From contig OY727093.1 of NCBI GenBank assembly GCA_963402885.1, positions 3,038,001 through 3,102,000 of the forward strand: DNA of 64,000 nucleotides, written 5' to 3'. Numbering within the stretch: the stretch's first letter is position 1; every line of letters starts with the position of its first letter. The notes beneath the pieces were generated by a model. That model saw only the letters and a program-made list of their open reading frames with translations, was not told where the DNA came from and did not search any database. Below, in pieces: positions 4,441-53,700 of this stretch. This DNA comes from Antedon bifida (lineage: Eukaryota > Echinodermata > Crinoidea > Comatulida > Antedonidae). Both the position numbers and the translations under genes were made by a program.

Positions 4441-9052
<4,612 letters not shown>

Positions 9053-9140
9053 TAAAATGGCAAAGACTCCGAAAGAAAACATTCTAAAAATGGAAATAAT
9101 TATGATATGTATGATCAATTTTAAAGTGATTTCAGAGGTG

Positions 9141-9307
9141 TAAAGCTTGGTCTACACTATCAAACTTTATGTGACAACAAATGTGTGATTAGCCCATATA
9201 TGTACATGATGATGTCATATCACTACAATATTTGGGCATATCACTACCATATTTGGGCACATCACACTTTTTTTGCCTAAGTAGTTTGATAGTGTAGACA
9301 GAGTTTA
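9141..9307. mobile_element. MITE family A copy, full length
   Basis: Begins TAAAGCTTGGTCTACACTAT and ends TTTGATAGTGTAGACAGAGT, about 165 bp, lying about 90 bp downstream of the TSTD2 stop codon. Confidence 0.8.
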
Positions 9308-11016: not shown

Positions 11017-14000
11017 TATACCATTTTCTTTGATGAACAAAAAGTGCGTAAGTACGTACCACGTCCAGTACCAATGTGGCCACCAATACAAGATGGTTTA
11101 CTGGAAATTGGTTTGGAAGAAGTTGTATGAACAAAGAAATATTGGATGTGCGTCTACATACCAATGTGGTTACCCAGGAGATGTTTGTGTGGTTTGGAAA
11201 TTGCTGACTATCGTTTTACGTAAGGAAGAAACACTATTATTAGTTCTGTAACTTTAAACAATAATAATTAACAATCATTGATCATTGTTTAATTGTAATG
11301 CTTACTATTTATTTATGGTTTAAATATTACTTTATTGCACGAGCCATTCATTAATTTAATTAAATAAATTATATTATTATATTTAAGTACCTATTAAGAA
11401 GGGAAGTTGGAATGTTTATGAAGAAAGTTGACGTGACACGCGTGTACGACATGTAAAAAGCGTTTCGACGCTGAATGTGAAACGCAGGTTTGTCTGAAGA
11501 TGCTCACGTGAGTATACAAATAAGGTTTGTATATCAAAATGGGGGTTGACCGAACTGTCTTGTATCGTCCTGTATCGTACTGTCCTTGTATCGTTTTTTA
11601 TTTTGTAATAATTTTAGAAAAAGGTATTTGTTAGCATTATTGATTAATAAAACACAGGAGAACCAACGACAACAGCACCTCCGACAACTGAACTTCTAAC
11701 GACTGAAATTCTGACGACTGAAATTCTGACGACTGAAATTCTGACGACTGAAGTTCTGACGACTGAATTACCAACAACCGAAGAACCGACAACCGCTAGT
11801 GCAACAACCATAGGTAAGCATACACTCATATTTATTGAAAAGTAATTGCATTAGTACAATATAAACACAATTTGGAGAAAATAAACTTAAGACCGTATAA
11901 TGTGTGTGTAATTTTCCTGTAAAATGACATGGCCAAGAAGATGAATCTACGAATGTTATAAAGAAAATCTATATGTATATAATATATTCATCAATGAGAA
12001 TTTAAATAAACGTGAGAAGAACTCACACAAGACAAAAAAAAGAAAATCTATAATTATTGTAACAAACAGAAGGATCCATAACAGAGAAAATGGAATAAAA
12101 TATTTTAAAAACGACTGATGATAATAATGTTGCCATCCTCAGCCTAATAAATGATTGTATAGAAAAGAAAGCACATGGAAACTGAATCTAGCACTTTAAT
12201 AATGTTTTATTCAAACGTTTTTTATTTACAGAAGTAATAACAGAGATAGAAACAACAGAACCGAGAACTACAGCAGAAGCGACGACAGCTAAACCCACGA
12301 CAACTGAACAAAGTACGTATGAATAGCCATGGTAGTTCCTTTTACTTCCTCCGTGGTATGGAAGTGGATATCTATTTTATCTACTAAATACTCAATATCA
12401 TTTTAATAACTTATAGCTTGACATTTTGACTGAATGTGCACACATACAATTTTCTAAAATTGGCAAAAATTACACAAGTTTGACTTGATGCGGCTGTTGT
12501 CGGACATAAATCACAATATTTTTTAGGCCTATTGTATATTTCTAACAACTCAGCCACTACATCCATCCATTGTTGCTTCTCTTTTTTTATTTATTTTATT
12601 TATTCGGTATAAAAAAAAATCACAACAATCCCAGCGGGGAAACCTGTGATTTACAAATATAAAACAAAGAAGAACACAATAAAAAAGCAAGTAAACAATC
12701 TTAATTACATATGAACAGGAGCATATAAAAAAACGAAATAAGAAGATTATAAAAATATACTAAATTATTATTATTATTTTTATTATTTATTTATATTATA
12801 TAAAATTCAAATAAGCCTATACTTTTACTTGTCTACATCTTTGGAGTACAGGAAAAACTACATAGTAAACAATAGAAAAATATTACAAATATAAAAATAT
12901 GAAAAAGTTTATACAAGCATATACTATTTATTATCAAAATTTAAAAATATTAGTCTGATCGATCTAATCTGATCGTAATCAACATTATCGATGTATTATG
13001 TCGTCATTATTGATGTTTATGTCTTTGCCTTACTTTATAAGTAATCAATTCCGAAAATCAATTTACAGTCACGACGACCGTGCAAACAACAACAGAGGAA
13101 CCGACAACAGAGGCGATCACAACGATTGAAATAACAACGCAAGAAGGTAAAAATAACAACACATAATCGATAATCCTTTAATCAATATCGATTTATTCCA
13201 TCGCTATGGCATCTACATTAAAGGTGTTGAATAATTATATAACTGTATTGTATTCTTACATTGTATTATAACTTATATTTATATTATTTAATTGGTCAGA
13301 TGTTGATGGCGAACTCTAATTACGTAGTATTACAGAGTAGCGCAAAAATCTCACCAAATTAACTTATTCATTTATCATACCGTTGGTGCAATATCCACTG
13401 CTTCTTAAAGCTTGGTTCCCACCAGGACGCAACGCAAGGACGCGAGAGCGCAACGCAACCGAATTGACCAATGATAATTCGGATAATCCATCGCTTGTGA
13501 TTGGTCAAGTTACTTAGGTCGTGCTTACGTCCTTCCGTTGCGTTGTTTAGGCTCGAATCTAACTCAGCCATCAGCGCGGACTTTAGGTGATCTAGATGTA
13601 TGAACGCAAGGCTAGTGATCTGGAGGTCGTGGGTTCGAGTCCCACTCGAGAATTCTAAATGCATTTACAATTACGTCAGAATTAGGCAAACATTAACATC
13701 TTATCAATTAAATGAACTCTTTGATCCCTGACGCAAAATAACTTTGAAGTAGTTTTTTTAAATTATCATCATATATTATTTTATTTTTTTTTTCAGCTGA
13801 AATTCTGTACACTGAATACTTCTGTCCATTTAGCGCCGCCGCAGACGTTCCTGTAAATAGTAATACGACTAGTAATAATGTCACCAGTATAACATGCATC
13901 TTGGAGCCGTACGCTGAAAGTACGTTACATCTGACTGATGGCCTATCTCTATCCGACGACGGCATCGTAGACGGCGCGATCCGGATGGAAGGAGATGCCG

Positions 14001-17000
14001 GTGACGGCACTGGAAGCTACTTAAGTCTTCCTTTTAACGGACAGTGTACGCTTGATCCGGCCATGTGTGAGTCCGGCCTGGCCATCGGGTTGTTTGTCAA
14101 AGTGACCGATGAAGATTTACAGCAAACTGGTCCAAAATACATATTAAGTTCAGGTAATGAAGACCACAGGAAAATGTTCACACTCCGATCCGGATTCCGG
14201 TCCGGAATCCGGTTTCAGAGTGTTTTGCTTTTATCACTGGCTAACAATTTTTTTGTTGCAAATGCTTTATTTTATTATAAACAATAAACATTTTAAACCC
14301 GAAGCTATATTATAATAAACTTTAAGTTTAGTTTTCAATGCAATGGAAATGTTACTTTTTCAGGTTACGGCAATGCGACAGGGTTCAACATATACCGTGA
14401 GTCGAACACTCTCGTCTTTCAAGTTCGTGACGGGACTCACCTGTGGACATCAGTTGTTAATGATACACTGGACAGTAGCGGATACTTTCACGCAGCGTTT
14501 GTGTGGAGCGAGGAAGAGGGTCTTACGGTTAGTATGGCCGTCGATCTAATGAGCATCCTTTGTCCGCCTCAGTCTCTAGAATAATTTTTTTTTCTTTTTT
14601 ATAGGCTAGGCTTAAAGACCAACTCAGATAGCATCGTACGACAAGGTCCGACGAAACGTCTTGACTCGTCGGTGCTCTCTGAGTTGAATCCAGACGAGAC
14701 TAAGTCGTCTTGAGATAACGTAGTTATGTCGTCGGAAGAACTTTTTTTCCCCCGACGAGACGACACTTCGTACGACGCTGTCTGAGTTGGCCTTATTATA
14801 ATCATGGATTAAGGAATAGATCGAATCGATTGACACATAATTCTTTGAATGTTCGATTATCTTTAAAAATTATAATACCGTATTAATATTATAGTGTTTT
14901 GAATTATACATATTTTTATTTTTATATCTTTTTTATATAATTTCCTTTGTTTTTTAAAGGCTTTGATTGACGGCGAAGACGTTGACCAGATGATGACAAA
15001 GGTTCCTTATTTCGTTCTCCCAAATTTAGGAAACATCACTTTGGGTGCCAGAATTGTAGATGGCGAGTTCACAGACTTCGCTTCCGGTACCTACGATGAA
15101 TTGCAAATTATGCAGCTATTCTTACCTGATGAACATAGAAAACTGACCATAATGAATGGAATAGGTATGGGACGCCGCATTGGTAAACGTTTTTTGCATA
15201 ATATTCAAATAGTGGTCACTAACAAAATACAGTATATTTTATGTATATACACATTTTGTTTATTATTAGATGGCGATGACTGTCGTTATGTCACGTGTGA
15301 CAATGGTGTATGTAGAGACGCTGGTATAAGAAACTTTACATGTGTGTGCGATATTGGCTACATCGGAACTCTATGCAGTGAAAGTAAATATATTTATTTT
15401 TCAAATACTTTCGATAGCACAAACTTACGAGGCTCACTTTACTATGATAAAAAAAAAAATTCATGATACAGATTGAAACAAGTACTATGCTATTGTTTTA
15501 ATTGGTTATTCATTGCAAAACTTTTGACCAATCAACAAACTTTCCTATGACGTAATTTTGTTGTTGAATGCAATGAAGTGTGACAAACAAATTAAGAGCG
15601 GCGCGCGGCGGCCGGAGAGGAACACAGCCTGGCGGGTCTAGGCCTACGTCGTCTGCATTTTGAATACAATATCAAATAAATACGCCGAGTAGCCTAAGTT
15701 CAGATGGTGGAGTACTAACAAAAACCTAGCCTAAATAATTGCCTTTCGGCGAGGACTAATCAACCCACCCGCTCTCTCTACTATCTAGGCCTAGGCTAGG
15801 CTAGAGTAGGCCTGTCTGTAGGCATCCTCTACTCTATCGAGCCAGGTGGCTAGAGAGAGAGCACCCATGACCATCCATGTGGTCGGTTTTCTAGGCTTCT
15901 TGCTAACTAGCTAGAGGGCATAGCGTAATAGTAGAGAACACATAGTTAGGCCAGGCCCAGCCTAGCAAGTCCTATATAGGCTACAGTAGGTACTATCTTT
16001 AATTCAAAATATTCAATTAAAATATTATTAATAGGCCTATATGAGAATGAATTTTAAAAATATAATGTTTGTATTCAACAGATGAAGATGATTGTGCTAA
16101 TAGTCTATGCTTGAATGGTGCTACTTGCCACGATAGTATTGGCACTTATCGTTGTGAATGTGAATTTGGCTATGATGGAGATTTCTGTGAAATTGGTGAG
16201 TATAATATCAATATCATAAAATAAAAAAATATCTGGGATGATTGGTAGTGTCTGTTTTTGACAGATCTAGCCTATAGCCAAAGAAAATTCTATTGCAACA
16301 ACTCACTGAAGAAAAAAAGAAATTACTTTTATTAGTATTATTTTAATTTTTGTCTCTAGATTTGACGCCAACGTTCAATTACAGTTATGTTGCTATAGTG
16401 TCACCAGAAGATCTTTTGGGTAAGTTTTGATCAAATGTATAATAGTACTGCTTTGTTTTTTCTTTGGGTCAAAATATACAAAAACTGTACACCGTACTGT
16501 ACATCGGCTGGCAGGCATATGAATGGGGCCTGAAGCTTCTAAATCTATTGTTTGATGTTGTTCCACACAAGTGTTGAGTTCTGGAATAATAAAATAGAAA
16601 GTACTGTTGACTCTCCAAATAAACTGGAAACTCTCCCAAATTCTTTTTTACCATTAAAACATATTGTAATACCGGAAGTAATGGAAAACCCAAAGGGTAT
16701 GTGGTATTCAACAAGTCTGACTGTACTTTTGTATTTTACAATTAGTGCTATTATAATTTCTACTAAAATCTATTGTTAATTTCACAAATTCTTATTAAAA
16801 TCTTGAGTTATCTTTATCTTCAATGTAAGCCGAAATAATAAATACAAGGCCCTCTGTTGCTCTATCCAAGTATTTTTCTCAGTTAATAATAATTAAAAAT
16901 TTGTTTATATTTCCAATGTCCACAGATCCATATGATGAGTTATTAAGAAATCCATTCTATGAGCTTGCACAGCGCTTTGAATCTCTGGCAGATGGCGGTA

Positions 17001-20000
17001 ATGAGTTTACAGAGTTTGACGCTGTTGGCAGAGGAGAGGAAGGCGTGCATGGCAGAATGACGGCAGCTGGTTCTTGGATGAACGCAGTTCCTGGAGGAGG
17101 AGAAATGTCCTTAGTAGGTGGAGATTGTCTCAGTCGGCCGGACTTGTGTCAGAACGGTTTTGCAGCATCGTTCTGGATGAAGATTTTCAGTTCCATAGAT
17201 TTGGACACACCAGGCATTATACTACACGGTGGCGCTAACAAAGGATATGGTGCGTTTACAACGCTGGAGCTCACAGACAATTATGCCTTGATATTAACAG
17301 GTATTATAATTATAAATTATTATTAAATTTATTTACAATACTACCAGTATTTTTCGCAACTTCCTATAGCAAAAGATAAGTGTTCGAAGAGCGTGTTTGT
17401 TTGATTGGCAGCAGAAAGGCTAACAGATTGGATTTGTTTTTTATATTGCTGGTGATACAAATCCTTGTGTTTCATTTATTAATGCATCGGTATAAAAAAA
17501 ATAAAACTGAAATATTGTGTAAAGTAGTAATGATTATATTGATATGTTATTGATAGTAAACCAGTAATTTTAACTTACAACTGATGAAGTCTAGCTGACA
17601 GCTAGATGAAACTGTCTTGAAACGTAAGTTAAAATGACTGGGTTACTATTATCAATGAACTACATATCAATATACTAATCGACAAAGTGTTTTCACTAGT
17701 AATAATTATGTCTTTATTATTTTAGTTGGTTATGCTGGTGGTGGCACTGTGTCTGGCACTTCTCGCTCCAATGTGATCGAGGCAGGACATTGGATTAATG
17801 TAGGCCTAACATATTCTACACATTATGGTGTCGCTATTTTCATCAATGGACACCAACTCAGCTTACAAACTAGGCAGAGTGGCTCACCCGGCACCAGCAA
17901 CTCAGATAGGATAACATTTGGTACGGTGTATACAGAAAACACGGCCTTTCCTATAGCTGTTTCTGATTTCGTCGTGTGGAACCGTTATCTTTTTCCTTTT
18001 GAACAGCACCGATTTCTTGGAGTATCTGGTAGGTACAACATTTTATTTTTAAAATTAATATTTTGTATCATGAAAATATCCAAAATAAAAAATTAACCAA
18101 TGAATCTTTCTTTTTTCAGCTACTGAAGGATCCTATTTAAGAAATGCAGCATATTATTGGACCAGTGACGGCTACATTGCGCGCGATTTTGCATCGTTAT
18201 CCGAATACGCAACAAACTTGGCAAACACTTCTGAAATAACGTTACCAGGAGGAGAAGAAATTCTAACATCTAGAGGTCGAGATGGGAAAGGCGAGGCTTC
18301 CCATGTTAATGGGACTGACAACCTTTGGTTTTTGCTAGGTAGGTCATTTTATTGGCCTAGCGTGAAATAAAATGCTTTAAAGATGTGTGAAAGTAACACA
18401 TTTTGTTCACATTTTTTGCTCTGGAAAAGTCTTGAAAAAGTTACGAAAATTATTTATGTATGAACTCTGTAAAATCATTGCAAATCTTCAAAAAGTCTTT
18501 CAAATTTTATTTTTGTTTATAGGTGACTTACCCGGAACATGTATTAGCGATCCATTTCTATGCCAAGATGGCGTTACTCTCGCACTCTGGGCGAGAATTT
18601 ACCCAGTGCACGATGATGTACCTCACTTCATCATGAGTACAGGAGAGCAATCAACGAGGGGGATGTCGTTTTACATGCGTCAAGGTGTTCTTGGTGCTAA
18701 TTTGATTGATGGTGATAGGAAGTGGATAACAGAGATTGAATTTACACCTGATCCAGGTAATATTTGACTTATCTTCTTCTTTGTGCATATACTATCATAT
18801 TAATTAAATCCTGGCATCAAACCATCCCACCAACCACACCAAGAGATTTTTTGAAAATTTTGGTTTAAAATTTGTAGGGAATTTCACAACATTGAGGCAG
18901 CCACAAAAACCTCTCTGACTCTATGTAGATGTCCTAGTCTTTAGAGTCCAAAGCTGGCATTTTCTGTATTATGCTGTGCCTTGTATGCAAAGATCAGCAC
19001 TGTGTATTTTACTGAAAAACAGGTAACCACAGTGGTGGGTAGTGGGGGAGATGTTGTAAAATTTACCCGTTCTAGTTACTAGTTTTTGCAGAATCTTTAT
19101 TTGGTTCTTTGGAAGACCATTGGAAAAAACTACATAAATTTTTACTTTCAGATGATTGGATCCACCTCGCAATATCTTGGAGGAAGAACACAGGAATGAT
19201 CTTATACAAAGATGGTTATATTGTCTCATATGATGACATCGGTATTCGTAAGATCCGAGAAGCTGATCTTGATACAAAAATTATCCTTGGGCGTAGAAAT
19301 GATTTCCTAGATGCATACAGTTCAATGGAATTTGAGGAACTCGTATTCTGGGAGAGATTTGTGGAAACGTGGGACGCTAGAGAAGTGTTTGGTCTTTCAG
19401 GTAAAGTATACATACTGATACTAATACCGACACCATTGTTGAGTTTAAATAGAATTTTAATGCAATAAAAAATGTGAAAAATTGTATAATTTTCAGGGTT
19501 AAGTTTTAGAAATGTATGGAAATTGATATTAGTGTTTTCAAGGCCTTTAAGGTCCTGGAAAACAACTTCGGTTTTGGACAAATTTAGGAAATATTTAATA
19601 TTCATTTTCAGAATTTGAACAATACGATGATGCGCTTTATCAATGGACATCTAAAGAGTTAATAACAAGTAAACTAGATATATTAATGACAAAATCGCTA
19701 GGCCAAGAAGAGTACATTGGGCCAACAGCAAGTGTTAGGGTAACAGAGAACCCCATGGCTGTAGATCTCACTCAGTCAAATTCTGCTTTGAACTTGGGTA
19801 AGTAAGAGTTCAATTTGCCTTGAAATTAACTACAAGATGCATGTTAATATGTTTTTGATAGAATGGTAGAATGACACTTTGACTCAACAGCTGTGTAGTT
19901 GAACAAATTGGTGCTTCCACAAGCAAAACAAATCTTTCTTTTTGAATTCCAATCATTTGCTAATTGAATAGATTTTATTAGCTTATGACTTGGTTTCCAA

Positions 20001-23000
20001 TACTTTGACTCAATCTGTTTTGAGTAAAGTCAGGGAGTTGAGTAAACACTGACAAGAATCTGATTTTGAGTCTGACCTTACAAGTGTACCCATTATGTTT
20101 TAGGTTCATTCCAGTCTGACTGTTTCACAACACCTATGGATTGCAGTGAGGGTCTGAGTATCTCAATGTGGGTTAAACTGTTACATGGCTCTTCTAATGA
20201 CCCAGTGGGTTATCTCTTAAGGTAAGCTTCAATTAGTTCCCACTGCCAATCAGATCAGTGTTCCCAGCATCCAATCTAAACCATTCACCAAGACAATTTG
20301 ACCTTTGACTTGTAAAACCTGACTTTGACCCAGACAACCTGACCCTCCCTTAAGCTCTGTCTATACTATCAAACTTGTTTGACAAAGAAATGATGTACTT
20401 ACCCATATGGTAGTGATATGCTCAAATATGTTAGTGATATGACATCATCATGTCCATACAGTATATGGGCACATCACATTTTTTTGTCACATAAAATTTG
20501 ATCCTGGAATTCAAAGACAATCATACATTACGATTCTTTTTAATTCTAGTGCTGGAAGAGGAGATGGTAGTGGCGTAGCAATATACAAAGAAGGACATGA
20601 TCTGATATTTGTCATTGAAAATGCAACTAATGTATGGGCAACGAAAATTAATGTTCAGGTAATTGGTTATTTATTTCAATACTATTTTATTTAACTAACT
20701 GACAGACTGTAAGCCTAAATGTATACAAGGAAGTGTAGATTTTATTAGGCATAAAAAAAGCATATACTGTAAAGCCCAAAATTTTTGCGGCCCTAAATTT
20801 TTGCGATTTTACATTTTTATCCAGACTGGATGGGCTTAATTAACAGAGTGATTACTGTATTCAAATAATATGCATGAATTTATCTGTAATAATTTTGTAT
20901 TATTTCATCTTGAATTCCTGTTTTAGGTGATACCAAATAATGAATTTTCCAACATAGCATTAACATGGTCTGCTAGTGCAGGTATAACAATTTACATAGA
21001 TGGTAAGGCACCAGTCAAAGCTAATGTCACTAGTGTTCATAGACCAGTAGGAAGTGTTGCTAATGATCACATGACCATCGGACGACCAAATGACGCCGAT
21101 TCAGACTATGGAAGTTTTATAATACTTAATCTTGTTGTTTGGGATAAATACTTCTTTCCTCGTAAAGCACACAAAGTTACAACTTTGACAGGTAAGACCA
21201 AAAAAATGCAATAATAATTAACCTTTGCTTTTTGTCTGGTCTCCCGATAGCTGTTCCCACTTGGACCCAGCACAATGATGTATGTGCAACGCAAGTGAAT
21301 TGACCAATTACAATTGACTGTTATGATGGTCTATCACGTCGTGATTGGTCAAATTACAGGCGGTGGGCTGACATCCTTGTGTTGTATTTAAGTGAAAACT
21401 TGATCATGTATAATTACCCCAAAACTTGCTAAATAATAGCATGAACACAAGAGCAAACAAAATGTAGTTACTGCAGTAACTGCAGAAGACTATTTTTGTC
21501 ATGGTCCTTAAGCGAGTTGTAATATATAATACCATAATCCTATTTTTTTGTTATATACTAGATGAACAGATTGAATGCATACATAGCAATAAAATGTGCT
21601 GGCCATTCGAGTCGTTACTTAGCCTCAAGTATCCTTACACTTTGAGTTCCAGTGGAGCAAAATACAAATTTGACAGACGATATAATGGGAGATCTGTATA
21701 CACCGATGGACGAACGGGCGCGATCTCTCTCGGTAACTTCCGAAATGCTTGTCCTAAGCGCTTATCAGCTTGTGAGAACGGGTTTGTTTTAAGCATCTGG
21801 TTACGTTTGGAAGATAACGATCGAAATATTGGAACACTTGTGAGTCTTGGAGCAGAGGTAGACGGTAAGGAGTCTCATGTTCTCTTTCACTGATGTAATG
21901 TTTCTTTATTATTTATTTCTCCCTGCTCTTCTTCCTTTGGCTTGTCCTTTGTAGATATTGACTAATTATAAAGTCCATAGTCTTTGGCTATAGCCTAGCA
22001 AAAGTGGTGTAACGGCTATGAGCGGCCTGGGAGCCCCTGAGCAGTGTCCAGAGGAAAAAACAGACATTAAAATATGTTGAAAATGGCAAAAAATGCCAGA
22101 TCCACTCATTGTATATGCGACCAGAATGTACTTCTTCAGTTTTGTTATCCTGAATATAAACAAATGAAACGAGAAACTTTCAAATCATAGGCTTTTTCAT
22201 TATAACTTCTAAAATCATGGTTCTCTTTTACATTATAACTTCTAAAATCATGGTTCTCTTTAAATTGTTAGATGAACAAGGAATTTCTCTGATCAAGGAT
22301 GAGTTTGGTCTCTTAGCAACAGTGGCTGATGGCAGTCACTTGTGGGTCAGCAGAATCTACAATGGCAATTTTACATATGGTCCATGGATGTTCCTTGGAT
22401 GGACTTGGTCACCTAACGCAGGCATAGACTTGTTTATTGATGGAATTGATCTGACACATACCATTGTTAGTAAAAACTCATTTATATACAAAAATAAGTA
22501 CCACTTATTGCTTTTTTTTTTTTTTTTTGCACGATAGTGTCAACAATTGTGATGTTATCGTCATGAAATTTTGGGCGTACTATATGTGCTTACAGACAAT
22601 GCCTTCAAAATTTTTTTTTAGAAAAATCGATATATTGGTGACGTCATAAAAAGCTTGAGATATCTTTGTCATGACTATGGACTAAAATATTAAATAACAC
22701 ACCCTCTGTTGCTCTGCATTTTACCAAGTATTTCTTAGCGCTTTATGTTTATAAGGATTTTTACATTTTGTTTCTTATTCAGGATAACAAAACTGAGGAA
22801 ATTCGTTCTAGTCGCACGTACAATGAGTTTTTCCTTGGAAGAGGTTCCCTACTAGAAGGACTATATATAGAAGCATATTTTGATGATGTTGTGCTTGAGT
22901 TCCCTGTTCTGTCTGAAGATTTACCAGACGCTGAAGATTTAACAGGAATAGATGGTTTGTATAAAAGTTATTTTATTTTCAACTAGATAATCAATTAAAG

Positions 23001-26000
23001 TAGTAAAATGAATTTCCATAAAGCTTGGTTCCCACTTGGACAACACAAGTGAGTTGACCAATCACAAGTGAAAGTTTGGATGATCCATCATGTCTGATTG
23101 GTCAAATTACTTGTGGCGAGCTTACATCTTTGCATTGTGTCCTAGTGGGAACCAAGGTTTAGGCAAATTTATTCATGCAAAATGAATGCGCTGGTTCATG
23201 CATATGGCATATCTGATTAGTCAATTTGATACAGCCATAATTGGTGGCCTAATAGCTTGCTTTTTGAGTGTGATTGTGGAATAACTGACTCTCTAGGCCT
23301 AGTTGTATTATACATTTAAGGTATTTACAGATCTTTTAACTAAAAATATGTTTTATCTTTCCAGCTGTGACAGCATATGCATCTGCGGATGAATATTATA
23401 ATCTTGTAACCAGTGATGAGGTCGAATTAGTTGATAGCAGTGTTGTCTCGGATCGCAATAATGATAGGAGTAGCGCCGTAAATACTGGTATAACTAATAC
23501 GTCTCATAGTCTTGGTTTCATTGATATTGGTAAGTTTGTTTATATAGTAGTTTTTTTACTGAAATAACATGATTTTATTTTTTTTTACAATGTAATTGAA
23601 TTTATGAACAGTGTGTATAATTACCTAGAAATTTGTATAATGGGTTAAAAAGATGATTGTGATTCGATTTAATATTGGTAAAAAGATTAACATTTTGGCA
23701 CACATGGCGTTTCATACTCATTACTTTACTGAAATCTCAACTACTGGAATATTAAAAATATAGAAAAGACAAAAGCTAGAGAATTCAAATCTTTTATTAT
23801 ACTATGCTTAGAATCAAATCTTTTTTTTTTAAATGTTCATAGGCGATTATTCTAGGACGTGTGTGAGTGACCCATCAAGATGTACGCCATCTGGAGTTAC
23901 ATTGTCCGTTTGGGTCAAGATAAATTCTCTTGAGCATCTTGAGAACAATATCACAAATCCGTCTGCTGTGGGATATATTCTCAGGTATGGCACGGCAAAG
24001 TAGCTGTTATTATTGTTAATTATCATCTTCATCATAATCTGCAATCTTTCTAGTTACTGTATAATGTTTGTATGATGCTATTAAGCTCTGTCTACACTAT
24101 CAAACTTTATGTGGCCAAATATGGACAAGATGATGTCATATCACTACCATATTTGGGCACATCACACTTTTTTTGTCAAACTAGTTTGAGCTTTAGTGTA
24201 TTCTGAAGAGTCCAATTCTAGATTGACATTTCCTCTGACATGGTGGTATATAGATTTTTCAGTATATGTACTGAGCTGATATGATGGAGTGCCATGACAG
24301 CTCTCCTCTCATGAATTTATTTTAATTGTATCTCAAAATTCTTGACTCCATCTCAGATTTTAGACCTCCATTGTTGTCTGTTTATGGCACTAGTTTCGCA
24401 AAGAAGTACAATTTAAATCCATTTTGCTTTATGGTTGAAAGTGCTTTTTATCCTTGCTTTTTCTCTCTTCTCTTTCTTTTTTTTTACATACAGTTCATTT
24501 TTACACAGTTATAGTAAATATACATAAAATAATATAATAAAACATATTTTTCCCAGTTCTGGTGCTCAGGCTCCGAATGGACGTGGTTTTGCAGTAGCAT
24601 ATGATGGTATAAATTTTACAGTCACAATGCAACACTCGAGGCATATGATTGAGTTCAGCACAGGCTTTGAGGACCCTGAGGGTTGGTTCAACCTTGCGGT
24701 GTCGTACAGTGAGACGCAGGGCTTACGTTTGTACATTGATGGCGTCCTTACTGGTAAGAAACACATTCGACTTACTGACCATTTTTATCGACTTGTAACA
24801 TGTCATAGCTAAACATCTTTAGTAAGTAAGTAAGTAATATTTATTGCTTTCCAAATACAGTACAAATTTATAAAACAGTATGTAAATGAAAAAAAAAGAG
24901 AAACATTAAATATAAAAATACAAGACTAAACAAGAAAAAAAGCATGGAAAGCAGGGGATGGCCCTTTAAGCCCAGAGGCTTGTTTCCAAAGGGGTCCCCA
25001 ACATGAAAAACAAAATTACAGTAATATAAAAAAATAGTTTAAAAAAAAAATTGTTATGTGTGCCACCACTGTATTACATTCCTATAGTGACCATTAGTGT
25101 TTTTAAAAAAACTTTTCATTTAATTTTTTTAGGCCTAATAATAATAATAATAATAATAATAGTGTTAATTAATGTACAGTAGAACCTCTATTAAGGGGAC
25201 ACCTTTAGGATCCAACAAATTTTCCCTTTAATAAGTGTCTTCTGATTAGTGGTTGGCCTTGGTGATAAAACATATTTCCCATCATTTGTTTCATGGAAAT
25301 GTGTCCCCTGCAGATGTGTAAACAGAGTGGGGAGGGGTGGGGGTTAGGGTATATTGCATTTTGTTATTCCAATTCACATTTATTCAGCAATATAAATATT
25401 TACATTACAGGGATTTTACAGAGACAAGTAATTGTCTGTAGTCGTAAAACCCTTTAGAAAAAAACAAATATTATCACACAAAAAAAAACATAAAAAATCA
25501 AATATTTTATTTATAAATGAAAGATCAAAAAAATATTATCTTTATTTACCTAATTTGAGGACAAAGCTTTTAGGCTTACTAATAATAATATTGTTATTGA
25601 TATTTCATTAATATTATCTTTATTTTTTACAGGTTCATCAACAGAAACAATAGAAACACCAACAGTAAGTGATTTCGCTACTCATTTACATCTTGGCAAA
25701 AGAAATGATATGAATGCTGATTATCTGGGAGCATCATTTGACGACTTTGCTACATTCTACACGACTTTTGAAGAAGACGATCCCTCACTTGCAGACACTC
25801 TGACAGGGAATGAAGCAGAAACTGGTGTTGGTATGTACATAATTTTATTTATTTTTTATTAAACCTTATTTATAATGTGCTGAATCTGCAAATATGGGAT
25901 TATTTAGACAGTATCATAGATAACATCTAGTATACAGCATCACATGTGACTCACATGTGTCTTGAAACTATTTTAAGATTAAGCTTAATACTGTACAGCA

Positions 26001-29000
26001 TCACATATAACATTAGAGAGCTTCAAATTTGCGATGACCAATGACCAAATGAGGACAGGTCAATCAAACCTGTGTCGAAGTGAGGAGCGAGGACACGTGT
26101 TCCAATATTCTCGCATGTGCATAATGAACTAACATGACATAGTTTGGTCATTGTCAGTTGTTGCACAAAGCTTTCTATTGGTCCTAGGATACAGTCTTAC
26201 ACTTTTGGACACTATTCAAAAATAAAAAATAGCCCAAGCTACATTGTCACTTGTTTACCTTTGCCTTGATAACTAATAATACATCTTGCACATCCAATTT
26301 TTGAACTACAATGATTTGTATTAATTTTCCAGTTGTAACCACGAATCATCCAGAACTAGATGCGTTGGCGCCATTTTCTGGAAAACCAGATTGTAAAGTC
26401 TTACACGATGCTGACTGTGCACGAAGCATTAACGAACTAAATGATGTGGTTAGTAATAATATAATAATATTATAATAATATTTACAAGAGGCTGTGGGGA
26501 CACTTCAGGAGCCAACAACGTGTCCCTTTAATAGGACTGTCCTCTGAATAGAAGTTTATAAAACTCTGTCTACACTTTATGTGACAATAAAAATGTGATG
26601 TGCCCATATATGGACATGATGATGGCATATCACTACCATATTTGGGCACATCTTACTTTGTTTAGATAGAGCTTTAGTGTAAAAAAATATCATATTTCCC
26701 TTTGTTTGTTTCACAAAAAAAAAGTGTCCCTACAGTGACCCTTGAATAGGAGGGGTCAATTAATTATGATTAGGATAATGAAGATAATTGAGGTTATGAT
26801 GAGAATGGTAATTAATTATTTACTATTTCAAGATAAATCAAATATTTACAAGCAATAATCTAAAATCTCAAATCTTTTTTTTTTCAGTTAAGTGATGAAG
26901 CGGTTATAAACGGAACTGTTTATACCAGCGTTCGTAACCGACTTCGCTATCTTGTTGAACCTAGAAATGATGTACCCCAAGACGACCTTGCATACTGTGT
27001 GGACGTGTTTGAAGCAATAGTTTATGCCCCAGTAGATTATAAACTTAATGAAACAGAAGCCATGTCTGAATTATCAGTAAGTTTCATTTTCAGTTTTATT
27101 TCACACAACATATTACACTATATATACATTTGAATAATAATACATTTGATTGTGTGTGGAGATTACAAGTAACTCTAATAAGGAAAAGGTGAGCCCAGTA
27201 TTTCTGTAGGGAATGACCTGTTAGGAGCTCATTGTACTAAGCCTGTGCATTATATGATAGGGTGACCACACTGCTGAATTTTTTCACACCAGGTACTGAT
27301 TTAGAGCAGAATGCAGGCACGGATTTAGGCCCCCACTAATGTTTAACAGACATGTCTCTTTTATCTCTTTTAAAAAAATAAAATACTGATTGCACATTGA
27401 ACAAAATCAAAACAAAACACCATCTCTGTGGAGAACGATCAAACAATCGATGGTTCCCACACACAGAACACTCATCTCTAACATACAACAAAAAATGTTA
27501 CGTCACCGTGTTTACCGGCTAGAAAGCTCAATTTTTAAAAATCAAACTTTATGTGACAAATCACTATCATATTTGGGCACATCACACTTTTTTTGTCAAA
27601 CTAGTTTGATAGTGTATAGACAGAACTTTAGTAATATTTGTTTATCTGTAATTCACGTTTATTTTTAGGATTTGATTCAAATAACAAGCAATATGATGCA
27701 ACCAAACCGATCTGAAAACTGGAAAACAGTCAATGAGGTAAAACACTTTGGTTTCTCTTTCAGAAAAATAATTTATACTTAATACTTTATAAATATATAT
27801 ATATTTTTTTTAATTGTTAGGTTTGGTTATTTTCATAATTAATTATTTGTTTTTTTATCAAAAACGTATGAAAACATACTCTCATAATTCAGCTAGTAAT
27901 CAGCGCAAAGTTGTGCCTTGACCTTACCAGGTACCCATTTGTACACTTTGGTGGAGAGAGGCAAACATAAGTATCTAAGAATACAAGCAATGCAGCGAGC
28001 ATTAGATTCGAACCCACTATCTTAGGATCAGTAGTCCAAGTTCTAACACACTGTGCCACACGCCCTTGTATTGCATACTGTACTGTAGGATCCATGAAAC
28101 CATATGAGTATTGTTTATTCATTATTTTAGGTTAGCATGGGTACACCATCACTAGTTAAAGCACTTGAAGATTATGGAATTCAAGTTTCTCGAAGATTAA
28201 GGACAAAGTCTGGTCATGAGAAACTTGTATTAAGTGCTGAAAACATAGGTGAGAACATGGAATCTTTATGAACGTTTATCAATTTTTTGTTAAGTCCCAA
28301 TTTTGAAAAATAAAATACCTGTAGGAGATTGAACCGTTTTCACATGTACACTATGATTATGAATTTATTCTATCATTCAGTTGTAGAAAAATGCACTTTT
28401 TTTTTATTCGACTCCTCACTAAGATAGTACATTAGTGAATGATGGGACCAACAGGTGGTAATACCTCTAAAACGGTTTTAAAGCAAAATATAGTCAAATT
28501 TACTGCCAGCCAATGGGTTTTTGGTTGAATTTACCCTTTTTATAAGTGAACACTTTTTTTAAAAACATTATTACAAATACAAAATGGCCTATTCAAAATC
28601 TGATTTATTAATCTTCATTGTTCATGTTTTTGGGGAACAATACATTTTTAAAGTATTCAACAAATATTTATTTTTGCCACAGGTATGCAGGTGGATTCGC
28701 TTGAAAACAGCAACCAGAACGATAAGTACTCATTACCCGATTACTCACTGTCCAACTGGAATGAAACTAAACTTTATTGGAATGACCCAATTGAGAAATT
28801 TACCCTACCGAAACACTTCTTTCAGTTCACTGAGCCTGGTGAGTTACAACTAATTTCCATCTTTTTGAACTTTGACATATACACCAATTTCACATTAATT
28901 AACCACCATCTGAACTCATGGTTAAATCAATGAATATGAATTTATTATTGAAAATGACATCATTAAAAGTATGACATCATTAAAAGTATGACATCATTAA

Positions 29001-32000
29001 AGTATGACATCATTAAAAGTATGACATCATTAAAAGTATGACATCATTAAAAGTTTGATATATGATGAGCAATATGTAATCTTATAGCTTGTCTCACTTT
29101 TATTAAAAAGTGACATAATGATGTAATTTAATACTTTAAAATTGTTACTAAAATTATATTGACAAGTTTAATTTTTCTTTTAGGTAAAACATCGTCTTTG
29201 GTGGCCACAATGTACAACACACTTCCTGATATGATTCCGGAAGTTGGAACTCAAGAGTGAGTTTTTGTTTTTAATTTTTTATTAACCATGTGAATGAAAG
29301 CTTATAGAATATATCTGGCTATTAATAATAAATAGTAATAGTTGTCTTATATAGTGCCTAATACAATGTTTGTAAGCTGAGCTTTACACATAAAAATGAT
29401 CCATTAAATATCCTAAGATAACCAAAAAAAGCAGAGGAACCATTTACACCTCTCTGTTCTCCAGCACTTTGAAGCTCCCATATGAGAGCTCGCCAGAAAA
29501 GTATTCACAGGAGCTAGAGGGAAAAGGCATCTGTCTACCCTACCAAAATAAGAAGAAAAAAACAATGTTTGCTACATCTTTGTTCCCACTTTGAAGTAAC
29601 GCAAGGATGTAAGCATGCCGCACGTAAATTGACCAATCACAAACAATGGATTATCCAAACTCACTTTGTCATAAGTAGTTTAATTAAGAGTTGCTGTTTT
29701 CTTTTAATTTTGCAGTGTTAAAGGCTTAGATGGTAAGCCAGTGAAAATCAATAGTAGGGTAGCATCGCTGTCGGTTGACCCACCTTTGCGGATGAACTTG
29801 TACAACCCAATCAGAATTGTTTTTGCACACATTGCGGTACGTCTGCATTCAATATTGTTTTTATCAATCATTTCATTTTTTAAGCGCCATTCAAACGATC
29901 ATTGCTCATTCATAACGCTGTTAAAGAGAATTCAGTTTTTAGAAGTGACTTGAAACTGTCTAAAGATGTCATTTCTAATATGTAAAAGGCATATTGTTCC
30001 AGAGCCTGGGCCCAGCAGTACTGAAAGTCCGATCTCTTCAGCTATGTTTTCTCCTTGGAATATGCATGTTTTATAGTAATTATATAAAAGATATACAACT
30101 GTACTCCATTAACCACATATATTAAGTAAGTGTTTAATTATAATGTATGATTAATATTTTTTTAGCCTGTGAATAAGTCTTCACATGAAGAAGTAGCTTG
30201 TTCATTTTGGAATCATAGCGCACCGTAAGTGTTATAATTTATTCATCATATTAATTACTACTATCATTATGCACTTAAGGCTTTTAAGCCTTAAAAAATG
30301 TATTTTTTCGTTAAAAAAATGAAAAATAAGGATAACTAAAAGCACATTTGATAGGCCATTACATAGTTTTTATCAAGTTGATCACTTTTTCCCAATGCAC
30401 AAAAACATATCAAGTTCCAGGCACACTTCCGGTTGACTATATTATCTTTCTTTCCATTATGGTTTTGTCAGGTAAAACATTTTGTGACATTAAGATGTCA
30501 GCTATAAAACAACAAAATACTATCAAATCATTTTTTCAGGGAAACAATATATCTCTAATAGTTCTACTTTCTTAAATGATATCAATTCTGTATTGTCATA
30601 CACAAACAAGGCTATTTGGTGTAAAACCTTATCATTTTATTATTTTTATTGTCAAATCATTATCATCAAATCATTATTGTCAATATTATTCACTTTTCGA
30701 ATTGGATTGTTTTAGAAATACGACAAATGGTGCGTGGGATACCCGTGGTTGCGAAGTTGTCTCGACTAATGAGACAATTACGATATGTCATGTTTATCAC
30801 ATGACCAGTTTCGCCATCATCATTAAACCAATTTTTGAGGAGGTGAGACATTTTACTTCATTGTTTATAACTTTTTTATATTTTTAGTTTAATTTAGCTT
30901 TGTTATGATATGACATTTCCAATTTTTTTTTATTACTTGACGTCAAGTGAGAAAAGAGTAAAAAAACAAAGTATATCTCAGAGCAAACATAATTTCTATG
31001 TATATTTAACATGCAAATGACAATAAATGAAAGTAATTTTCCACTGATGAATGAATGAATAAAATGATTTTAGCTGTTGGGGAAAAGTGAATTTGATTGT
31101 TTGAAAAATCTTAAAATGTGATAATTTGACTTTTTGTGTACATTTGTCGTTTTACTAGGAGGAAGAATCTGATGAGGGCAACCTTCAATGGATGGCGAGA
31201 ATCCTATCAGTTTTTTCAATTTCTTTTCTCGGAGTGTACTTATTTTATCTTGTATGTGCCAAGTAAGTCAATAACATTTTTCTTGTAGTAATACACATGA
31301 TTGTGATATGCTAATCTATCAGTAATTATTATTAATATTAAATATTAAGTAATATTACAGTTGACTTTCCCAATACCGGACTCTCTGAAAACTGGAAGCT
31401 CTCCCAATAACAGACTTTTTTTGAGGTCCAAAAGGTTCAAAATTATTTTTTTTATCATTAAAAACACATTTAGTATACCACGCCTGGTTGATGTTATACA
31501 GTAGTTTAGCATCTATATTTACATATTTTTTTCACCATACATTTTTCTTTTGCAGTAAAGTACAGACTATTACAGTCTCCAAATCTTTTTCTCAAATAAT
31601 GATTATTGTGTCCAATATGCTCCATTCCATATTGTGTGTGTTTTTTTTACTTTATGTATTTTTTTTTTTTTCAGGCGTCTACGAGTTATTCTACACACCA
31701 TACACATCAACCTCTGTGTAGCTGTTATTTTTGCATTACTGTCCCTGGCTGGTTCTGGAGATATCAAAGATGCATGGGTAAATATACTAACACAATGTAC
31801 TGATACATTGATTATTCTTTATTCAATTACCCTTTTATAATTATGATTTTTAAAAAGGGTGACTCATATTATTGGGTGAATTAACCTGCAGATGCCGTAT
31901 AAAGTTAAATTTACAAAAAATTAAATAACTTTGTCAAATAATTTAAATAGAACACCTACTTTATGACACCCCTATTAAGGGACATATTACTGTAAAACAA

Positions 32001-35000
32001 ACAAGGGACAATGTTTGTTTTAATACTACAGCCAACCTCTATTAGGGGACACCCTTAAGGAGACTTTGGTTCTAAGGTGTCCACTTATTAGGAGTTTTAC
32101 TGATGTTTTTATCAATTCTATTCTGTTCCAATAATATTTCATTTTTTCAACAGGGCGACTGTATGTTATCTGGCTGTTTAATTCACTACTTCAACACAGT
32201 CATTATGCTTTGGCTGTTTATAGAGGCTTTTCAGCTTTTTACTGATCTCACAGAGAGCTTAGAGATCCAGGACGAGGATGATGATGAGGATGAGCCGCCA
32301 TTCCAAGAACGGGTCAAATACTATATTCTCTTTGGATGGGGTAAGTGTTTTAAATGGCCTGGATGTTTTATTAGGTGTTTAATTAGATAATTTTCATAAA
32401 TTCTATATGACAATCTGTCAAGCAAAAATAGCATTTATTTGATAATTTAATAATAATGATTGTAATGTTTAATTTAATATAGCGTAAAATTCAGGGTGCC
32501 TCTAAGAACTGAACAATTAACAGAAAAAGAGCAAAAGATTAATATTTTAAAGCATTGCAACATATTAAAAGAAAAACCATTTTATTCATTAGAAAATAAA
32601 ATCTGTTAGAATGTGGATGAAAGTTGGGGGCCATTTTAGTAGTGTCAGAGAGCCTTTCAAAGCCCTACAAAGCAATACAACATTTTTAAAAACAAAATAA
32701 CTTTTAAAATGAATGTACTATTTTTAAAATGTGTTTACTGGATATTTGAAATGGATAAATAATTTTAAAATTTCTGAGTAATAGTTTCTAATATGTAATA
32801 ATAATTTATGTTTTTATTCAGGAGTACCGTTCCTAAATGTGGGTGTTGCGTTTGGTTTCTCTCCCGATGCCTATATTGAACAAGAAGCTGGCTTGTAAGT
32901 AGATTTTGTATGCATTATTATACATCATAAATTAGATAGTATATAAAAAAAACCAAAAAAATAACTCATGTGTCACAAACTCATAACTATACTTCCAGCC
33001 ACCAAATTTAACTATTATTTATTGGGCAGAACCCACCAAATGCGAACGTGGGGGTGGGCTAAATTTTTACAAATACAATGTAAGAGAGAACATTAGGTTA
33101 AGCACCCCATATTCAAGAAACTTTTTTTTTATGAAAATATTAATTATTATTTATAAATTATATTTTAGCTGTTGGCTTGATAATTCAAACTTCTTATGGT
33201 GTGCGTTTGTCGGACCATTAGGGTTCTTTGGATTGGTAAGTAATCACGTACCATACTTCGATTTATCTGATCATGTGATGGGTTCATGCTTGCTCTCATA
33301 GACCACTGAATCACATGTATAAATCATGTGATCTCCAGGACAGGCTTATATCCAAGTCAGTAGGGTGTTGTATTTTTTTGATTATATATTATAAATATTT
33401 CCACTGCTGAAAAATTGTTAAAAACAAAATCCTTATTTATTAATGCAATAACATTTGGCCAGGAGGTCAACCTAAACGGGTTGATGGCGTGTTGTTATAT
33501 ATAACATAATTGTTACAAAAGTCAAAAAAATTAATATACAGAAACTTAAAACAAAAGTTTTTGTTTTTAGAAAAGATCAGATTGGTTAATAAATTATACA
33601 AAAACTCTTTAGCACTCTGTATAATCAGAAATAGTGGCACTGTGGCTTTGTGGTTGACATTCTTGCTTACCAATCCCAGGGTCAATTGTTCAAATCTGTT
33701 TACAATTTTAGGATTTTGGTGATAATACGTCACATGGTTGGTATGAAAATGAAATGATAACAGTTTATTGTATCTCTTAAAAGAAAAACAAAATTAATTG
33801 AATGTATCTAAATATCTAAGTTAAATTAATGTATTTGTTTATATTGCAGTGTACCTTATACATGCTATATCGGATGCTAAGAGACATTGATGAGCAAGTT
33901 TATAGAGAAGATAGAACAACAATATTTAAGTAAGTGTTACAATTGAGATTTAGAGTATCTTAATAGCACAGTGGTAGATCCAGAGTGGGCGGGGTGTTAC
34001 CACACATATAAAAATTGCACTGCTAATTTTTTACTTTATCGTTTTGATTTAGCTTTTTGCTTATTTTATTTTGTATCTCCATTGAGATCCAGCTACTGAT
34101 ACCCACTGCATTTTCATTTTCTCAGTAATTTGCCTTTGATTTATAAAATGAAAAATTAATTAATGTAAAATATTATTATGTTCAAATTTGTTGTCTTTTT
34201 CGACAGATCTAGTTACTTTGGAACATGGACTTTACAGATATATTTCTTGATCACATGGAGTGTTGGTTTAGTTGGAATATATGGTCTTTATCTCTATGCC
34301 CTCTACTTATTTGTACTTGCCATGTCATGCTTGGTAAGTTTGAAACAATATTTTATTCATCATTTAAAACAATTTAATACATTTCTGTACTTGTGAGGGC
34401 CTAGCAATATTGCAAAAAGTAGCTGTTTTTAGCTACTTTAAATGTAAAGCTCTGTCTACACTATCAAACTAGTTTGACAAAAAAAGTGTGATGTACCCAA
34501 ATATGGTAGTGGTATGCCCAAATACGGTGGTGATATGACATCATGTTCATATATGGGCACACCACATTTTATGTTACATAAAGTTTGATTATGTAGACAG
34601 AGCTTTATATGACATATTTCTATAATGGATGTTCTTTTTGTCTTTATACAGGGTATTGTCACATTCATCGTTCATGCACTTTTAAATACAGAAGTACGGT
34701 TATTATTAGGCTTGAGGAATCCAGACAAAACGTTGACACCTATTGAAAAGATTCATTTGGTTAGTGAATTATATTGCATAAAAATTAAATTTATCTATTC
34801 ATGTTTTAATGTATTATTAAACTATTAAGAGTTAATGAGATAATAAACATTGTTATTGTGGTATAATAATTAAATTATTCTCAAAAATATAGGTAAGAGT
34901 TTATAATTTAAGTTTACATTGAAAACCTATTAAGTGATGTTATCTCTATATCGAATAACATAATAAGTGTATGGATTTTGCATTGGAAATTTGTAACACT

Positions 35001-35254
35001 TTTAACCGAGCATGTTCATTTCCACCACAATATACTAATTTTAGTAATGTTAAATAAATATTTTATTTTCAATAGCCACCGGAGTTTGATGACGTTCGGT
35101 ACATAAAACCAACTTGTAAGTATTTTTTATTCTAATTCATTTTTTTGTAAAATAATAAACGCTTGCTTTATGAACACAAAGTTGCAGGTCTAATAGACTA
35201 TGGAACGCCAAACATATATGTTTTTTTTTATTTGTTTTTACAGATATTCCATGA
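11017..35254 (+). CDS. Giant adhesion G-protein-coupled receptor with six ConA/LamG-like domains
   Basis: Coding exons end to end: 11017-11219, 11658-11813, 12232-12312, 13069-13146, 13797-14153, 14364-14527, 14960-15164, 15270-15383, 16082-16195, 16360-16419, 16926-17300, 17726-18028, 18120-18338, 18523-18756, 19152-19400, 19612-19797, 20104-20221, 20550-20658, 20927-21191, 21562-21864, 22272-22465, 22783-22954, 23365-23529, 23843-23984, 24557-24753, 25633-25830, 26333-26448, 26888-27076, 27669-27737, 28131-28248, 28683-28838, 29184-29256, 29716-29836, 30166-30224, 30716-30842, 31159-31262, 31675-31777, 32154-32340, 32822-32894, 33169-33235, 33850-33929, 34207-34333, 34652-34759, 35076-35115, 35244-35254. 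Sum 6889 nt, about 2,295 residues, phase-consistent throughout. Four donors are GTTAGT. The first exon (Cys-rich, with YQCG twice, faintly EMI-like) fits by phase only; no signal peptide was found, so the true N-terminus is probably upstream. It is an orphan-type aGPCR; ligand unknown. Confidence 0.9.
11658..13146 (+). other. Mucin-like Thr/Glu/Pro stalk of the adhesion GPCR
   Basis: Three exons (11658-11813, 12232-12312, 13069-13146), all starting after one base and ending with one base of a codon, encode runs such as [18 protein letters not shown] and [10 protein letters not shown]. Nearly every third residue can carry O-glycans, so this is probably an extended glycosylated spacer. The first exon contains tandem copies of a 15-bp unit (ACGACTGAAATTCTG). 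Equal phases would let exons be skipped or duplicated without a frameshift. Confidence 0.8.
13404..13548. mobile_element. MITE family B copy (aGPCR intron 4)
   Basis: TTAAAGCTTGGTTCCCACCA, GACGCAACGCAAGGACGC, then TTGACCAAT...GATTGGTCAA and a decayed right end (GTCCTTCCGTTGCGTTG). Confidence 0.75.
13575..13660 (+). mobile_element. tRNA-derived SINE, subfamily 1
   Basis: GGTGATCTAGATG resembles an A box, and GTGGGTTCGAGTCCCAC forms a perfect T-arm with B box. It is followed by CTCGAGAATT and an A-rich tail. A second copy lies at 49031-49110 with matching body, so this is a dispersed element rather than a tRNA gene. Confidence 0.65.
13797..15164 (+). other. First ConA/LamG-like domain of the adhesion GPCR
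   Basis: Three exons encode one roughly 240-residue unit. It opens with [14 protein letters not shown], has the family signature [14 protein letters not shown], then a strand-rich core, ending [14 protein letters not shown] before a linker to the EGFs. Spacing of the paired Cys ahead of a hydrophobic 'G-L-x-I-x-L-W/F-V-K' strand is the hallmark shared with the five later copies. Confidence 0.75.
14617..14792. mobile_element. MITE family C copy (aGPCR intron 6)
   Basis: CpG-rich element with inverted ends (CCAACTCAGA..GCATCGTACGAC and GTACGACGCTGTCTGAGTTGG). It shares GACGAAACGTCTTGACTCGT and CGTCTTGAGATA blocks with a second copy at 61360-61513. Confidence 0.75.
15270..16195 (+). other. Two EGF-like domains of the adhesion GPCR
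   Basis: Exons 15270-15383 and 16082-16195 are exactly 114 nt each and have equal phases, so they are likely an exon duplication. Each has six cysteines in EGF spacing. The second has D/E-D-D-C and C-x-D-x4-Y-x-C, the calcium-binding and Asp-hydroxylation pattern; the first lacks the aromatic residue of that pattern. The intron between them holds a locally GC-rich patch near 15597-15660. Confidence 0.88.
17536..17673 (+). repeat. Foldback element with hammerhead-ribozyme-like core (aGPCR intron 11)
   Basis: Arms 17536-17577 and 17624-17673 are reverse complements with few mismatches. Between them: CTGATGA (17581-17587), a seven-pair hairpin TCTAGCT-GAC-AGCTAGA (17590-17606), GAAA (17608-17611), then C-U-GUC (17612-17616). 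That is the order stem I, CUGAUGA, stem II, GAAA, minimal stem III, GUC, stem I of a type I hammerhead. Arms would supply stem I, starting CAA/TTG. Activity is inferred, not shown. Confidence 0.5.
20351..20503. mobile_element. MITE family A copy (aGPCR intron 17)
   Basis: Starts TAAGCTCTGTCTATACTATC and shows the ATATGGTAGTGATATG and GACATCATCATGTCCATA blocks; the right end decays after CACATAAAATTTGAT. Confidence 0.75.
21246..21395. mobile_element. MITE family B copy (aGPCR intron 19)
   Basis: Decayed copy: GTTCCCACTTGGACCCAGCA, ATTGACCAATTACAATTGAC, GTGATTGGTCAAATTAC and a GACATCCTTGTGTTGTAT right half. Confidence 0.65.
22198..22262 (+). repeat. Two-copy tandem duplication, 33-bp period
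   Basis: CATTATAACTTCTAAAATCA followed by TGGTTCTCTTT appears twice in a row, just before the acceptor of the exon at 22272. The second copy lies where the intron 3' end and polypyrimidine tract should be. Confidence 0.85.
23019..23160. mobile_element. MITE family B copy (aGPCR intron 22)
   Basis: TAAAGCTTGGTTCCCACTTG at the left, GAGTTGACCAATCACAAG and TGATTGGTCAAATTACTTG inside, and CCTAGTGGGAACCAAGGTTT at the right. Confidence 0.8.
24081..24197. mobile_element. MITE family A copy, short form (aGPCR intron 24)
   Basis: TTAAGCTCTGTCTACACTAT, ACAAGATGATGTCATATCAC, TTTGGGCACATCACACTTTT and TTTGTCAAACTAGTTTGAGC; the internal ATATGGTAGT repeat is lost. Confidence 0.75.
24820..25330. repeat. 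Retroelement-tail-like sequence followed by GGGACAC repeat (aGPCR intron 25)
   Basis: AGTAAGTAAGTAAGTAATAT, then TTTCCAAAGGGGTCCCCAAC, resembles the insert at 6337-6633. From 25175, ACAGTAGAACCTCTATTAAG and GGGACACC begin a copy of the dispersed GGGACAC repeat also seen at 32025-32105, 37767-38060, 40880-41070, 51595-51775, 54130-54345 and 60635-60735. Confidence 0.5.
26571..26684. mobile_element. MITE family A copy (aGPCR intron 27)
   Basis: AAACTCTGTCTACACTTTAT, then CCCATATATGGACATGATGA and GGCATATCACTACCATATTT, ending GATAGAGCTTTA. It interrupts a GGGACAC-type repeat (26490-26530 and 26690-26760). Confidence 0.75.
27540..27633. mobile_element. MITE family A fragment (aGPCR intron 28)
   Basis: AATCAAACTTTATGTGACAA, TTTGGGCACATCACACTTTT and AGTTTGATAGTGTATAGACA: right part intact, left end shortened. 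Confidence 0.7.
27865..28090 (-). mobile_element. tRNA-derived SINE, subfamily 2 (aGPCR intron 29)
   Basis: On the minus strand it reads GGCGTGTGGCACAGTGTGTT (A-box region) and GTGGGTTCGAATCTAATG (B box), then GGTACCTGGTAAGGTCAAGG-type body. Its body (CAGCTAGTAATCAGCGCAAA, GGTGGAGAGAGGCAAAC) recurs at 36040-36245 and partly at 59275-59375. Confidence 0.6.
28954..29054 (+). repeat. Six-copy tandem repeat of a 17-bp unit
   Basis: ATGACATCATTAAAAGT is repeated six times head to tail (one unit is 16 bp, having lost an A). TGACATCA is close to a CRE/AP-1-type octamer, but this could be chance. It lies in aGPCR intron 31. Confidence 0.95.
29577..29690. mobile_element. MITE family B fragment (aGPCR intron 32)
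   Basis: TTGTTCCCACTTTGAAGTAA, CGCAAGGATGTAAGC, AATTGACCAATCACAAACAA, TGGATTATCC; the right arm is missing. Confidence 0.6.
34020..34130 (+). repeat. 3' part of the ribozyme-core repeat (aGPCR intron 41)
   Basis: TTTACTTTATCGTTTTGATT, TATCTCCATTGAGATCCAGC and ACTGATACCCACTGCATTTT match the tails of the elements at 3658 and 55615, but the CTGATGA/GAAA core is absent. Confidence 0.65.
34446..34609. mobile_element. MITE family A copy, full length (aGPCR intron 42)
   Basis: TAAAGCTCTGTCTACACTAT to ATGTAGACAGAGCTTTA, with both inverted ends nearly intact and the ACCCAAATATGGTAGTGGTA core. Good reference copy for the family. Confidence 0.85.
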
Positions 35255-35296: not shown

Positions 35297-35302
35297 AATA
35301 AA
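35297..35302 (+). terminator. Poly(A) signal of the adhesion GPCR
   Basis: AATAAA 43 nt after the TGA at 35252-35254; further AATAAA hexamers follow near 35341 and could be alternatives. Confidence 0.6.
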
Positions 35303-48630: not shown

Positions 48631-48801
48631 CTAAAGTTCTGTCTTCTACACTATCAAACTTTATGTGACAACAAAATGTGATGTGTCCATACATGGACAT
48701 GATGATGTCACATCACAACCATATTTGGGCATATCACTACCATATTTCGGCGCATCATACTCTTTTTTGTCAAACTAGTTTGATAGTGTAGATAGAGCTT
48801 A
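48631..48801. mobile_element. MITE family A copy, full length
   Basis: CTAAAGTTCTGTCTTCTACA to GATAGTGTAGATAGAGCTTA, with the CATGATGATGTCACATCACA and CATATCACTACCATATTT core. Confidence 0.8.

Positions 48802-53352: not shown

Positions 53353-53387
<35 letters not shown>

Positions 53388-53664: not shown

Positions 53665-53700
<36 letters not shown>

Follow-up and report, generated by a model that had tools for sequence, protein, structure and literature searches.

The window that we analyzed, a 64,000-nucleotide stretch of Antedon bifida DNA, contains a single forward-strand gene at 11658-35254 that encodes a large adhesion G protein-coupled receptor (aGPCR) with an unusual domain order. A Thr-rich stalk is followed by one ConA/LamG_3-like unit, two EGF-like domains, five further ConA/LamG_3-like units, a GAIN domain, and a seven-transmembrane (7TM) domain; the parts are familiar, and the arrangement alone looks new. 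A first-pass annotation of this DNA had proposed both the aGPCR identity, which is supported by matches to the GAIN, GPS, and 7tm_2 families, and the domain order, which the curated gene model and Pfam bear out. We consider it probable that the product of this one gene acts as a receptor whose ConA/EGF arm binds a partner, whose GAIN domain cleaves itself, and whose tethered agonist activates the 7TM bundle. Adhesion GPCRs convert contact and force to signals, and with a six-unit array one could test whether extra ConA units alter how far the receptor reaches, its valency, or how much force exposes the tethered agonist.

The gene model was built with a splice-and-codon model trained on segments picked by eye, after which each boundary was set by reading the sequence. 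It comprises 44 exons separated by 43 introns of 91 to 879 bases, all 43 of them GT-AG, and its stop codon, TGA at 35252-35254, is followed by an AATAAA at 35297-35302. The spliced frame of 2,227 residues is uninterrupted; because exon boundaries were picked among GT and AG sites to preserve the frame, neither the open frame nor the fit of the phases counts as independent evidence, and an open frame alone proves little. Codon scores are not independent evidence either, since the training segments were chosen by hand from the aGPCR gene and one neighbor. The domain matches are independent of the boundary choice. Unspliced single frames at 17659-18096 and 32076-32390 match Laminin_G_3 (27.8 bits; cut-off, 27.6) and 7tm_2 (21.8 bits; cut-off, 20.6), respectively.

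Automatic gene searches were compared with the curated model. One with a lax intron penalty returned 149 exons, mostly tiny, and was dropped. Two stricter runs recovered the ConA part and missed or cut the GAIN, GPS, and 7TM exons, which were set by reading the sequence. When the stricter of these two, also of 44 exons, was set against the curated model, 21 of the curated exons were identical, 16 overlapped, and 7 were present in the curated model only; 7 of the 44 automatic exons were omitted from the curated model.

The first-pass annotation ended the gene at 35254, the same base at which our stop codon ends, and gave it about 2,295 residues and 45 or more exons. The large one-frame gene stands, with 2,227 residues in 44 exons, and the extra first exon, placed at 11017-11219, is doubtful. 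Adding this exon (68 residues, with a split codon) would account for the larger figures. Although its frame is open and joins that of exon 1 in phase, it has a coding score of -2.5 in its open frame (-5.6 and -17.9 in the other two, both interrupted by stops), and Pfam returned no match for it. As curated, the gene begins with a mucin-like stalk at 11658-13146, encoded by exons 1 to 3 (11658-11813, 12232-12312, and 13069-13146), in which 43 of 104 residues are Thr; a 15-bp tandem repeat lies inside the stalk coding region at 11683-11767. A scan of 8.9-11.6 kb for a hydrophobic frame with an ATG and a donor returned five rows and no acceptable signal peptide. The strongest candidate, with an ATG at 11539, was rejected because it would require a 34-base intron; the other four are nested ATGs in one frame (9045-9102) with phase-0 donors, where exon 1 requires phase 1.

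Domain matches were sought by a Pfam scan of nine spliced pieces, from the first ConA/LamG_3-like unit (U1) to the tail, and, of the stalk, the start only. Five of the six units match Laminin_G_3 above the cut-off: U1 (exons 4 to 6, 13797-15164; E = 6.4e-08), U2 (exons 9 to 11, 16360-18028; 3.4e-10), U3 (exons 12 to 14, 18120-19400; 3e-06, at 27.9 bits just above the cut-off), U4 (exons 15 to 18, 19612-21191; 3.4e-11), and U6 (exons 22 to 25, 23365-25830; 1e-13). The two EGF-like domains lie at 15270-16195, one on exon 7 (15270-15383) and one on exon 8 (16082-16195), and match Pfam EGF in two stretches (5.3e-11). The spliced piece for U5 (exons 19 to 21, 21562-22954) had no Pfam match, and NCBIfam returned nothing for U5 or U6. 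A profile built from the other five nevertheless gives U5 73.0 bits, versus 3.8 for the best of 999 shuffles. Equivalent leave-one-out profiles gave 80.1 bits for U1, 61.8 for U2, 92.6 for U3, 113.2 for U4, and 91.9 for U6, so that all six units fall at 61.8 to 113.2 bits, versus at most 7.9 for shuffles. The six units are thus homologous, as the first-pass annotation had read them; the HMM search that it proposed as a check finds Laminin_G_3 in every unit except U5, and U5 is brought in by the profile of the others.

A search of the PDB with the six-unit profile suggests a jelly-roll fold. It returned 60 rows at an E value of ≤1, of which 57 were classed as ConA-like or pentraxin by their folds: 43 clostridial neurotoxin-type chains (from 2.1e-06), 9 pentraxins (SAP-like, 3.2e-05; PTX3, from 1.1e-04), 4 pappalysin-1 chains (about 0.08), and a single S-layer protein, which was the top row (5.8e-07). 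We take the matched parts of these chains to be ConA-like jelly rolls, and the units, judged by these matches, probably share that fold. The remaining three rows, two GRP78 homologues and an uncharacterized protein, have E values of 0.69 to 0.81. None of the 60 rows is an adhesion GPCR chain, though ADGRG6 chains, including 6v55, are in the same library, so the search does not tie the units by sequence to the PTX domains that known receptors carry.

Exon structure bears on how the array arose. All nine module borders are phase-1 introns; introns of this phase make up 24 of 43 in the whole gene and 4 of the 18 listed in the GAIN-7TM part. One intron falls in a single alignment codon (column 9, phase 1) in U3, U4, and U6, and a second (column 56, phase 2) is common to U4 and U6; U1, U2, and U5 have neither. 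The uniformly phase-1 borders, together with the intron common to U3, U4, and U6, support the serial duplication that the first-pass annotation had suggested, and the exon phases show how a ConA array can be built. Pairwise identity among the units is 19 to 28%, which indicates that the copying is old rather than a recent local expansion; part of it could predate the present gene.

Exons 26 to 34 (26333-30842) encode a GAIN domain (Pfam GAIN, 2.2e-16) with a GPS (6.4e-13; 49.4 bits against a cut-off of 22.5), and this domain directly precedes the 7tm_2 domain, the arrangement by which an aGPCR is recognized. Within the GPS itself (30716-30842), both Trp residues, the initial Cys, the GC, and the leading Cys of the final pair are conserved, as is H-M-T. 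The latter conforms to the His-x-Thr/Ser cleavage motif, with the predicted cut falling between HM and TSFAIII, at the Thr codon at 30804. The segment after this cut, TSFAIII, is intact and aligns to TNFAVLM of ADGRL3, as a tethered agonist should. Four cysteines are usual in a GPS, and the one that closes the CxC pair takes part in a disulfide. Here that residue is Val, whereas it is Cys in CELSR1 and ADGRL3, and the four-cysteine pattern, which is usual and not defining, is incomplete. Since one expected disulfide partner is missing, cleavage is not certain. When the end of the GAIN domain alone was compared with the PDB, the best match was CELSR1 (5.9e-12), and ADGRL3, latrophilin-1, and others were also matched.

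The 7TM domain is encoded by exons 35 to 42 (31159-34759; Pfam 7tm_2, 4.2e-21), and exons 43 and 44 (35076-35254) encode a short cytoplasmic tail and the stop codon. A GAIN-7TM query of the PDB matched 29 sequences at an E value of ≤0.01, all of them adhesion GPCRs; the top matches were ADGRL3 (2.5e-28) and ADGRD1 (1.1e-23), with the best stretches over the GAIN end and the 7TM domain. The 7TM domain alone scored 56.7 bits with ADGRD1, 54.1 with ADGRL2, and 35.9 with ADGRG4; because ADGRD1 is only narrowly above ADGRL2 in this comparison of scores, we claim neither a subfamily nor orthology.

Several known families resemble the receptor in part. ADGRD1 (GPR133), the best 7TM match, has one PTX-like unit and, unlike the present receptor, no EGF pair and no mucin stalk. 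Latrophilins (ADGRL), which include the best GAIN-7TM match over the GAIN end and 7TM domain, carry RBL, olfactomedin, and HRM domains; none of these three, which mark an ADGRL receptor when they precede GAIN, was matched at an E value of ≤1 in the nine Pfam-scanned pieces from U1 to the tail, and cadherin had no Pfam match in the same pieces. ADGRG4 and ADGRG6 have a single PTX-like domain each, as do human PTX-bearing receptors in general, and ADGRG4 is more distant in its 7TM domain (35.9 bits). CELSR receptors, whose member CELSR1 is the best match for the GAIN end, have two LamG domains. Four members of the aGPCR family are predicted to have PTX domains (PMC10687090), a PTX-like domain is described for ADGRD1 (PMC10687090, PMC13197933), and one is placed in the extracellular regions of ADGRG4 and ADGRG6 (PMC10687090), the latter with an additional CUB domain (PMC13197933). 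EGF and LamG occur within a single aGPCR in ADGRC (CELSR/Flamingo), where Flamingo has a long intracellular domain in addition to cadherin repeats and HormR (PMC13197933), in contrast to the short tail found here.

Invertebrate receptors with domain mixes absent from mammals are described from amphioxus, where Somatomedin B, Kringle, C-type lectin, SRCR, LDLa, I-set, CUB, and TNFR domains are listed and a ConA array is not mentioned in the accessible portion of the source (PMC2246102). Other accounts state that the Adhesion receptors of sea urchin mostly form clusters distinct from those of human (PMC4302439), that up to 20 receptors group separately from all vertebrate families (PMC8584163), and that in two sea cucumbers 50 of 56 Adhesion receptors in one and 38 of 39 in the other are unclassified (PMC7042368). 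No aGPCR bearing an array of ConA/LamG_3 units was found in the literature surveyed, which consisted of titles and the starts of abstracts and had most subscription papers outside it; orthologues may well be annotated already.

By analogy with characterized aGPCRs, an O-glycosylated stalk and ConA/pentraxin-like jelly rolls, interrupted by the two EGF domains, would extend from the cell. This arm would bind a partner in the matrix or on a neighboring cell, and its domains suggest a glycan or protein ligand and a role in adhesion. The receptor may also be lineage-expanded, as the first-pass annotation suggested. The GAIN domain would cleave itself between HM and T, a pull or ligand binding would expose TSFAIII as a tethered agonist, and the exposed segment would in turn activate the 7TM bundle and a G protein. 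Related behavior is reported for the ENT/PTX region of ADGRD1, which is listed with a cAMP-raising partner (PMC13197933), for the PTX-like domain of ADGRG4, which dimerizes and has a proposed mechanical role (PMC10687090), and for aGPCRs in which ligand binding can free the N-terminal fragment and so expose the agonist (PMC12716839).

A different explanation for these data could be that the locus holds two neighboring genes, or two main transcripts, one for a mucin/EGF/ConA protein that is secreted or anchored, the other for a separate aGPCR starting near the GAIN exons. Should the exon 25 donor go unused, the frame ends at 25859 with an immediate stop, and a shortened secreted form could exist. 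However, both stricter automatic runs join the ConA and GAIN/7TM parts in one gene, and exon 25 runs into exon 26 in phase 1 over a 502-base intron, as at the other module borders; we find a split locus very improbable. The same parts could also make up a receptor that stays uncleaved and serves mainly as an adhesion molecule, as would be allowed by the Val that closes the CxC pair of the GPS, where CELSR1 and ADGRL3 have Cys. We think this unlikely, given that the cleavage site retains its His and Thr, that the agonist segment is preserved, that the GPS scores 49.4 bits against a cut-off of 22.5, and that the 7TM frame is open.

The binding arm might instead serve an immune or self-recognition receptor, its ConA units binding glycans of microbes or of other individuals. 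ConA and pentraxin folds are frequent glycan binders, and the six units have diverged far from one another (19 to 28% identity), both of which speak for such a role; we judge it decidedly unlikely. Our preferred reading remains a single-gene receptor that binds, is cleaved, and signals through its tethered agonist. It is conceivable, if doubtful, that this receptor represents a separate invertebrate aGPCR line. Copying of one LamG_3/pentraxin-like unit via phase-1 exons would then have produced the array of six, and the outcome would be a long, multivalent, lectin-like receptor for force sensing or recognition, with an altered GPS cysteine pattern.

The surrounding 64-kb window has a G+C content of 25 to 40% per 2-kb step and carries intron-rich genes; Rfam and tRNA scans of it were empty. 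Directly upstream of the aGPCR gene, at 5592-9052, lies a rhodanese-type gene (Rhodanese_C, 3.2e-10; Rhodanese and UPF0176_N below their cut-offs), which we take to be TSTD2-like. A Rapsyn-like gene is present at 49833-50528 (Rapsyn_N, 6.8e-19). Histone H2A is encoded on the reverse strand within 57616-58600 (Pfam Histone, 1.9e-16, in a predicted spliced piece), and beside it a forward-strand start at 58437 presumably belongs to an H4-like gene, in a 52-residue predicted piece of which Pfam found nothing. Judged by their open frames, the H2A and H4-like genes both seem to be broken by introns, which is unusual for core histones. A 574-base GAT-type satellite at 53296-53869, whose open frames translate to runs of Asp/Lys, Met/Lys, or Ser, is probably not a gene.

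Two repeat ends recur across the window. The first, GTCTACACTATCAAACT, resembles the end of a mobile element and has 13 matches with up to two mismatches, versus 0.02 expected, at 2493, 9150-9299, 20359, 24090, 27603, 34454-34598, 48644-48793, 52214, and 54914-55018; the matches include four facing pairs, and five fall within four introns of the aGPCR gene. The second, AAGCTTGGTTCCCAC, has 10 matches with up to two mismatches, versus 0.08 expected, at 3021, 6287, 6691, 13408, 23021-23159, 46150-46309, 52604, and 61617, and three of these lie in introns of the aGPCR gene.
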